Positions 40,636 to 43,504 of a DNA stretch of 64,000 bases are shown in pieces. The stretch covers positions 62,001 to 126,000 of the forward strand of contig CANGVA010000006.1 in the NCBI GenBank assembly GCA_947457395.1, written 5' to 3'. The translations under genes and the position numbers were made by a program. How positions within the stretch are numbered: position 1 is the stretch's first letter; each line of letters begins with the position of its first letter. This DNA is from Bacteroidota bacterium. GTDB lineage: Bacteria > Bacteroidota > Bacteroidia > UKL13-3. Under the pieces are notes generated by a model. It made no database searches. It was not told the origin of the DNA and saw only the letters and a list, made by a program, of their open reading frames with translations.

Positions 40636-40950
40636 ATGACAAAAGCAGAAGTAATTGCAGAGATTTCAACCAAAACCGGCATTGATAAAGCCCAGGTTCA
40701 GGAAGCCGTTGAATCATTTTTCAAAGTAGTTAGAACTTCAATGGTAGAAGGTAAAAATGTATATTTCCGTGGATTCGGAAGTTTTGTGATTAAGAAAAGA
40801 GCCAAGAAAATTGCCAGAAACATTTCTAAAAACACCGCAATGGTGATTGATGAGCACTATATTCCAAGTTTCAAACCGGCTAAAACGTTTGTAGATAAAA
40901 TCAAGAAAAGCGAAACGGTAAAAGCCAAAGCAGCTAAACTTACTGCTTAA
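40636..40950 (+). CDS. HU/IHF family DNA-binding protein
   Basis: Nucleoid protein that bends DNA, 104 residues. The HU fold is plain: MTKAEVIAEISTKTGIDKAQ (helices), then VYFRGFGSFVIKKRAKKIARN, the beta-arm region. The tail is longer than in classic HU (about 90 residues), with an Ala/Lys-rich end (KSETVKAKAAKLTA) of a kind seen in Bacteroidota HU proteins. The TPR gene follows 6 bases later and the small basic protein after that, so they form one run that leads to RNase E/G. Confidence 0.93.
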   Translation: MTKAEVIAEISTKTGIDKAQVQEAVESFFKVVRTSMVEGKNVYFRGFGSFVIKKRAKKIARNISKNTAMVIDEHYIPSFKPAKTFVDKIKKSETVKAKAAKLTA

Positions 40951-40956
40951 TCAGGC

Positions 40957-41763
40957 ATGAGGAAAAATCAGTTATTCTTACTGCTTGTTGTTGCCGCTAT
41001 TGCAGGTTTTTTGTTTTACATGGGCTATAAAACGCCCAAGGCCACTATTGAAAAAAGCAGCACAGAATCTAAAGGGTTTGACTTTACTGATTATTTGAAT
41101 ACAGCTTCGCAAAAGCTGGATTCAGGGTTTAAAAATAAGCTAGAAGCCATTGGTGATAATAATAAAGACACCCTGGTACTTCAGCAAAAAATTGTTCTTT
41201 GGGATTCGGCAGGTTATCCATTCATAGCAGCGCATTATTTGCATGATTTAGCTGAAATAATGCAGGATGAGCGAACTTGGTTTGCTGCAGGTAGTAAATT
41301 TTACATGTTGGCTGCTTCTGAGGCAGACTCTCTTATCGCAATACGTGCTGCAGAGGAAGCTAAACATGCATTGGAGGAGGTGATTAAAATTAACACCAAT
41401 AACCTCGATGCAAAAAATGCACTAGCTGCTTGTTATATAGAAGTTGATCAGGATGTAATGAAAGGTGTAAGTCTGTTAAAAGAAGTTGTAGAAAAGGACT
41501 CGAATAATATACAGGCTATCTATACCTTAGGCATGCTTTCAGTTCAGTCTAACCAGCTTGAAAAGGCAAGAGAAAGGTTTGAGAAACTCATCCGCTTGCA
41601 GCCATTTAACGCAGAATACTATTTCTACTTGGCAGAGATTTATGCCAAAACAGGAGATACCCAAACAGCCATCAGAACATACGAAAAGTGCAAAACACTG
41701 CTAACCGATAAGGAAGCAAAAAAAGAAGTAGATACAATTATTAAAAAACTTAAAAACATTTAA
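40957..41763 (+). CDS. Membrane-anchored TPR protein
   Basis: Protein of 268 residues. A single N-terminal membrane helix (MRKNQLFLLLVVAAIAGFLFYMGY) precedes a periplasmic or extracytoplasmic part. The C-terminal half holds about three to four tetratricopeptide repeats, for example NNLDAKNALAACYIEVDQD, NIQAIYTLGMLSVQSNQ and NAEYYFYLAEIYAKTGD. TPRs bind proteins, and the partner is unknown. It sits between HU and the small basic protein with gaps of six and five bases, so co-transcription is near certain. Confidence 0.85.
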   Translation: MRKNQLFLLLVVAAIAGFLFYMGYKTPKATIEKSSTESKGFDFTDYLNTASQKLDSGFKNKLEAIGDNNKDTLVLQQKIVLWDSAGYPFIAAHYLHDLAEIMQDERTWFAAGSKFYMLAASEADSLIAIRAAEEAKHALEEVIKINTNNLDAKNALAACYIEVDQDVMKGVSLLKEVVEKDSNNIQAIYTLGMLSVQSNQLEKARERFEKLIRLQPFNAEYYFYLAEIYAKTGDTQTAIRTYEKCKTLLTDKEAKKEVDTIIKKLKNI

Positions 41764-41768
41764 CGCCT

Positions 41769-41858
41769 ATGCCAAGCGGTAAGAAAAGAAAAAGACATAA
41801 AATAGCCACCCACAAGCGCAAGAAACGTTTGAGGAAAAACAGGCATAAGAAGAAATAA
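41769..41858 (+). CDS. 29-residue highly basic protein, possible ribosome-associated protein
   Basis: ATG at 41769, TAA at 41856-41858. The product starts MPSGKKRKRHKIATHKRKKR and ends LRKNRHKKK. Nineteen of 29 residues are Lys, Arg or His and none is acidic. Such composition is typical of tiny ribosomal proteins of the THX type. It begins five bases after the TPR stop in the same operon and lies upstream of RNase E/G. I recall similar short proteins in other Bacteroidota at this place, but cannot check it. Structures of a Bacteroidota ribosome have shown an extra small protein (bL38, as I recall). Whether this is the same protein I do not know. Confidence 0.75.
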   Translation: MPSGKKRKRHKIATHKRKKRLRKNRHKKK

Positions 41859-41886
41859 TACATTTTGACGTTATTCTTTATTGGTG

Positions 41887-41920
41887 ATACCGTTAGGTTG
41901 CATTTTGCACCAAACGGTAT
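41887..41920 (+). promoter_or_regulatory. Stem-loop in the leader of the RNase E/G gene
   Basis: ATACCGTT (41887-41894) pairs perfectly with AACGGTAT (41913-41920). Inside, GGT/ACC and GCA/TGC extend the stem around a TTT loop with one mismatch and one bulge. No T tract follows, so a terminator is unlikely. A leader hairpin before an RNase gene could serve processing or autoregulation; that is inference. Confidence 0.5.
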
Positions 41921-41944
41921 TGCTCTATTTAATCCTGTTGCATT

Positions 41945-43504
41945 GTGAGTCATGAATTAATCGTTAATACGCATCCAGGCGGAGGAGTTGAGATTGCACT
42001 GCTTCGCAACAAAAAACTGATCGAGCTTCATCATGAAAAAGCTGACAGCAATTTTGCTGTTGGTGATGTTTATCTCGGTACGGTTAATAAACTCATGCCC
42101 GGATTAAATGCTGCGTTTGTTGATGTCGGACATGAGAAAGATGCATTTCTTCACTATCTGGATCTGGGTCCTCAGGTAAAATCCTTTATCAAGCATACAC
42201 GGGTGCTCCTTAATAATAAACAGGCATCTGTATGGCCCAAAAAGCGAGATAATGAGATTGACATCATAAAGTCAGGCAAAATAGGGCAGGTTCTTGCAAG
42301 AAACCAACAAGTGGTGGTGCAGGTTGCCAAAGAACCAATTTCAAATAAGGGACCTCGCCTTACCTCACAACTATCATTTGCAGGCCGCTATTTGGTGCTC
42401 ATCCCTTTTGATGATACTGTTTCAATATCAAAGAAAATTGTTAAGTCAGAAGAGCGTTCAAGATTAAAGAAACTGGTATTGGGTATTAGGCCCGAAAATT
42501 TCGGGGTAATTGTTAGAACGGTTGCAGAAGGTCAGGAAACTGCTGATCTTGAATCAGACCTAAGAGATTTGCTAAAACGTTGGGAGGTAATGTGTGAGCA
42601 ATTAAAGAATGCAACACCACCCCAGCGCATTTTAGGCGAAAGCGACAGGTCATTAACTCTTATCAGAGATTTGGTTAATGATGACTTTACAGGTATACAT
42701 GTAAACGATCAATATCTGTATAACCAGATAAAGAACTACATGAAAGCCAAAGCACCTGAATTGGAGAAAATTGTGAGGCACTACCAAAACAGTAAGCAGG
42801 GTATATTTGAATATTTTGGCATTGATAAGCAAATTAAATCTTCTTTTGGGAGGCAGGTAAACTTCCTAGTTGGTAGCTATCTTGTAATTGATCATACAGA
42901 GGCACTTCATGTAATTGATGTAAACAGCGGAAATATTGCAGGAAAAGAAATTAATCAGGAAGAGAATGCACTGAAGGTTAATCTGGAAGCAGCGGATGAA
43001 ATAGCACGCCAACTAAGATTAAGAGACATGGGTGGCATCATTGTGGTTGATTTTATAGATCAGAAAACAGCAGGTAATCGCAAAATGGTGTATGAAAGAT
43101 TAAAGGTGGAAATGAAAAGTGATCGTGCCAAGCACAAAATCCTTCCAATGAGCCCTTTTGGTTTAGTGCAAATCACCAGACAGCGTGTAAGGCCCGAAAT
43201 GGCCATTGTAACAAATGAAAAATGCCCAACTTGTAAGGGTACCGGTGAAATTTCTTCGAGTGTAGTTATTCTTGATGAAATTGAAAATAGGGTAAAATAT
43301 CTGATACAAAATATGAATATGTCCGGTATAAGCTTGCATGTTCATCCATACATAGCCGCTTTTCTAACCAAAGGCTATTTCAACTCACCACGTTTTAAGT
43401 GGTTTTTTAAGTATAAAAAGTTTATTAAAATTACACCTGTGCAGTCGTTTCAATTCGGTGAATATAGATTCTTTAACTCTGTCGGTGAGGAAATTGCAGT
43501 ATAG
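41945..43504 (+). CDS. rng: Ribonuclease E/G family protein
   Basis: Endoribonuclease for rRNA processing and mRNA decay, 519 residues, RNase G size. The start is a GTG at 41945 (SHELIVNTHPGGGVEIALL after the first residue); no ATG fits. The S1 domain spans about residues 36-130 (VGDVYLGTVNKLMPGLNAAFVDVG region). The catalytic DNase I-like domain carries IDVNSGNIAGKEI and GGIIVVDFID. The zinc-link motif CPTCKGTGE has Cys427 and Cys430. A leader hairpin lies just upstream. Confidence 0.94.
   Translation: MSHELIVNTHPGGGVEIALLRNKKLIELHHEKADSNFAVGDVYLGTVNKLMPGLNAAFVDVGHEKDAFLHYLDLGPQVKSFIKHTRVLLNNKQASVWPKKRDNEIDIIKSGKIGQVLARNQQVVVQVAKEPISNKGPRLTSQLSFAGRYLVLIPFDDTVSISKKIVKSEERSRLKKLVLGIRPENFGVIVRTVAEGQETADLESDLRDLLKRWEVMCEQLKNATPPQRILGESDRSLTLIRDLVNDDFTGIHVNDQYLYNQIKNYMKAKAPELEKIVRHYQNSKQGIFEYFGIDKQIKSSFGRQVNFLVGSYLVIDHTEALHVIDVNSGNIAGKEINQEENALKVNLEAADEIARQLRLRDMGGIIVVDFIDQKTAGNRKMVYERLKVEMKSDRAKHKILPMSPFGLVQITRQRVRPEMAIVTNEKCPTCKGTGEISSSVVILDEIENRVKYLIQNMNMSGISLHVHPYIAAFLTKGYFNSPRFKWFFKYKKFIKITPVQSFQFGEYRFFNSVGEEIAV

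Follow-up and report, generated by a model that had tools for sequence, protein, structure and literature searches.

The small ribosomal subunit protein bS22 has been described in several published ribosome structures. In Borrelia burgdorferi, it lies in a pocket formed by helices h2, h27, h44, and h45 of the 16S rRNA, touches H68 of the 23S rRNA, has a reported Lys/Arg content of 61%, and closely resembles the F. johnsoniae protein, which is likewise shown in the 16S pocket (PMC10618245). The same protein was described in C. acnes, with a bridge at H67 and a link to mS38 and eL41, and the C. acnes and F. johnsoniae sequences are 37% identical (PMC10085706). The actinobacterial proteins (M. 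smegmatis and C. acnes, 33 aa) are highly basic helices occupying the same pocket in published structures (PMC10085706, PMC6133939). Binding in the h27/h44/h45 pocket has been established for the proteins of F. johnsoniae, Borrelia, and actinobacteria (PMC10618245, PMC10085706). The mitochondrial protein mS38 (AURKAIP1/Cox24) and eL41/eS32 occupy the corresponding ribosomal site (PMC10618245, PMC6582356), bS22 being the bacterial counterpart; mS38 is longer, eL41 is shorter and unbent, and common origin versus convergence is debated. mS38 stabilizes h44, and yeast mitochondria need it to initiate translation normally (PMC6582356).

The window analyzed here is a stretch of 64,000 nucleotides from a Bacteroidota bacterium (contig CANGVA010000006.1). 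Table 1 lists the features around one short gene in it. The open reading frame (ORF) runs from an ATG at 41769 to a TAA at 41856-41858 and has 29 codons, encoding the peptide MPSGKKRKRHKIATHKRKKRLRKNRHKKK. The TPR ORF ends at 41763, leaving 5 nt between its stop and the ATG, so the clean 29-codon frame set five bases after the TPR stop in the sequence-only reading was borne out. That reading had also counted 19 basic and no acidic residues; the lack of Asp and Glu stands, and the basic count was a small miscount, since the peptide has 17 Lys/Arg (17/29, 59%) and 3 His, 20 basic residues in all. The peptide thus has the size and composition of the Bacteroidota and spirochaete type of bS22 (about 30 residues, about 60% Lys/Arg).

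Table 1. Features at the bS22 locus, in window coordinates.
Feature	Position	Strand	Basis
HU-family DNA-binding protein, conserved upstream neighbor	40636..40950	+	PF00216, E 5.6e-24; syntenic
TPR protein between HU and bS22	40957..41763	+	Pfam TPR
bS22 translation start region, overlapping the TPR gene end	41748..41768	+	Sequence; no Shine-Dalgarno
bS22 gene, 29 aa (small-subunit ribosomal protein of the AURKAIP1/COX24 type)	41769..41858	+	ORF; full-length match to 7jil_5, 9i5v_10, and 8fmw_V; kept in 288/296 phylum genomes
Hairpin between bS22 and RNase E/G, lacking a strong U tract	41883..41924	+	Fold of the gap
RNase E/G, conserved downstream neighbor	41945..43504	+	PF10150, E 1.8e-97

The peptide was compared with all PDB chains using phmmer, and matches over 28 to 29 residues, its full length, were obtained with three chains: 7jil_5 (E 2.3e-10, 29/29 residues, 90% identical), 9i5v_10 (E 4.4e-10, named as an AURKAIP1/COX24 domain-containing protein), and 8fmw_V (E 3e-6, 28 residues, the Borrelia chain named 30S ribosomal protein bS22). 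A seven-sequence profile found the same three matches at E 1e-15 to 8e-14; these bacterial bS22 sequences were the only ones returned, and no mS38 chain matched up to E 10. The Pfam model COX24_C (PF08213) did not match the peptide in hmmscan up to E 10, a search of the genome with PF08213 gave nothing, and no model in the whole of Pfam and NCBIfam matched the peptide. As the curated models were all silent, the family was recognized from solved structures. The Bacteroidota bS22 (7jil chain 5; also in 9oz9, 9ozn, 9ozz, and 9p0e) has the same length, the MPSGKKRKRHK start, the ATHKRKKR core, and the NRHKKK end, and differs at I12V, L21A, and K23A and by one extra C-terminal residue. The Borrelia burgdorferi protein (8fmw chain V; PMC10618245) is 75% identical over 28 residues and has the THKRKK and NRHKK cores in common, whereas its start is MPCGRKRKLKKIS and a GUG start codon has been reported for it (PMC10618245). 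The actinobacterial proteins were too distant for sequence detection in this analysis.

The comparison with proteins of Bacteroidota ribosome structures that the sequence-only reading had proposed therefore gave an end-to-end match at 90% identity (7jil chain 5), and its suggestion of a ribosome or RNA role gained support from full-length matches to chains of solved ribosomes named 30S S22 or bS22. With a probability of roughly 0.97, the gene encodes ribosomal protein bS22, a basic helix in a 16S pocket that bridges to the 23S rRNA and most likely stabilizes h44 and the 70S particle. The protein has been described previously and is not new. The PDB sequence of 7jil_5 and of entries 9oz9, 9ozn, 9ozz, and 9p0e is named both S22 and L38. 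One molecule name of this matching sequence, "50S ribosomal protein L38," would make the peptide the large-subunit protein bL38, which is very unlikely given that the Borrelia chain named bS22 aligns over 28 residues and that PMC10618245 treats bS22 and bL38 as separate proteins and locates bS22 of F. johnsoniae in the pocket of the 16S rRNA. The naming conflict is settled as bS22 by the Borrelia chain and PMC10618245.

In the same-genus relative (L002), bS22 differs from the window at 3 of 87 coding bases, all third-position and all synonymous, against 30 of 86 bases in the adjacent noncoding gap and 138 of 807 in the TPR gene. Beyond the genus, 20 loci from same-family genomes were fetched, and 18 of them encode an identical peptide, although the neighboring TPR protein is only 32-54% identical; two more same-family genomes, outside those 20 loci, have a peptide 90% identical. 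When 21 comparisons are pooled, differences occur at about 78% of synonymous sites, and the small nonsynonymous figure comes nearly all from path-counting across the two codon boxes of Ser or Arg and in Leu codons, a reading adopted because all but two of the compared peptides are identical. A peptide search found the peptide and its start in 40/40 related genomes, and the gene in 288/296 genomes sampled across the phylum, mostly with one match per genome; such a search favors similar peptides, but with counts this high, sampling cannot account for the conservation. The 29-codon gene is therefore real, nearly invariant across Bacteroidota, usually single-copy, and under purifying selection. 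Conservation of the peptide and its start, and an excess of synonymous change, had been named beforehand as what a real gene should show, and both were found.

That the frame is spurious, a chance product of an A-rich run of lysine codons, would fit its shortness, its low complexity, and the silence of Pfam and NCBIfam. This explanation was ruled out, its probability being practically nil, because amino acids are conserved while synonymous sites diverge and because the peptide matches solved structures. Named loci were collected using a degenerate DNA pattern and included records named Bacteroidota, Spirochaetes, Marinimicrobiota, KSB1, WOR-3, Chlorobiota, and Ignavibacteria; because the pattern fixes THKRKK and NRHKK, part of the residue conservation that these loci show is built in.

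The place of the gene between a TPR gene and RNase E/G, near HU, was confirmed by Pfam (PF00216, TPR, and PF10150). RNase E/G lies less than 700 bases downstream of bS22 in 30/30 close loci, counting that of the window's own genome, and all 29 close loci with enough sequence have HU within 2 kb upstream. For named records with enough flank, RNase E/G was found downstream in 84/97 and HU upstream in 85/93. Many records from Flavobacteriales and Bacteroidales have HU directly 5' of bS22 with a gap of about 20-40 bases, and a TPR gene stands between them in the lineage of the window and in Chitinophagaceae- and Cytophagales-like genomes. The order HU-(TPR)-bS22-RNase E/G is thus widely conserved. 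HU is also directly 5' of bS22, at 10-83 bases, in records of Marinimicrobiota (L106, L112) and KSB1 (L139), and on this adjacency the linkage may predate Bacteroidota; no RNase E/G was detected 3' of bS22 in L112 or L139, and the L106 record ends too early to show whether one follows. One contig titled as a Streptomyces griseus MAG (L104) carries the Bacteroidota order TPR-bS22-RNase E/G and is probably mislabeled or from a contaminated bin. Where profile models fail, the gene order offers annotators a simple guide to bS22, which is easily missed in annotation. The case confirms that core ribosomal genes can be shorter than the usual gene length cut-offs.

Peptide and profile searches did not find bS22 in three near-complete genomes of the genus g125 (G185, G233, and G237) and three of the genus g105 (G265, G312, and G324), and no short basic ORF was found upstream of RNase E/G in these six (L182-L184 and L186-L188). 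Three other g105 genomes carry bS22, yet the region upstream of RNase E/G is without it, so the gene is elsewhere there. Two further absences came from fragmented assemblies and carry little weight. Two genera thus appear to contain species without bS22, through loss or divergence beyond detection, and the protein seems not to be universal in the phylum. Genomes that appear to lack it offer a natural test of its function.

The start region of bS22 overlaps the TPR gene end, so translational coupling of the two genes is possible. Across 177 loci, positions -14 to -11 before the start are A-rich and 60% have A at -3, in agreement with the initiation motif of F. johnsoniae (PMC6847099). A Shine-Dalgarno sequence was sought before bS22 and was absent in 29/30 close loci; several loci bearing one belong to phyla other than Bacteroidota, among them spirochaetes and KSB1. 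In Flavobacteriales, the bS21 gene is reported to have a Shine-Dalgarno sequence (PMC9976891). Control of bS22 of this rpsU-like type was considered and dropped on the counts just given.

The ORF, the purifying selection on it, its end-to-end match to ribosomal chains, and the conserved gene order come from the present analysis, and the binding site and bridge from published structures of other species. By analogy with these structures, the short, almost wholly basic helix would sit in the 30S subunit in the 16S pocket of h2, h27, h44, and h45, under the decoding region, and its contact with 23S H67/H68 would form an extra intersubunit bridge. It would most likely stabilize upper h44 and the 70S particle. 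We infer that bS22 is produced in this organism and placed in the same way, and any exact effect on initiation or decoding is presumed likewise.

A mainly extra-ribosomal peptide, acting as a free cationic antimicrobial or by binding nucleic acids, would be consistent with the finding that the free C. acnes bS22 peptide inhibits bacterial growth and cell-free translation (PMC10085706), but is scarcely credible for a protein that is nearly invariant across the phylum, linked to housekeeping genes, present in solved ribosomes, and, at 29 residues, without a secretion signal. Any role of bS22 in the ribosome is set in a phylum that makes little use of Shine-Dalgarno pairing. It is conceivable, though rather unlikely, that HU, bS22, and RNase E/G are an old unit held together by co-regulation with ribosome output, and that bS22, by h45 and the anti-Shine-Dalgarno region, aids Shine-Dalgarno-independent initiation in this phylum; if so, altered initiation is expected in lineages that lost bS22.

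The hairpin before RNase E/G (Table 1) is a candidate terminator, attenuator, or processing site. When the gap was folded in both the window and the same-genus relative, the stem was kept and the loop had diverged; the whole-region z-score was only -1.5. Strong hairpins 3' of the bS22 stop also occur in many relatives (gaps of L002-L030), at a similar position and with unrelated sequences.
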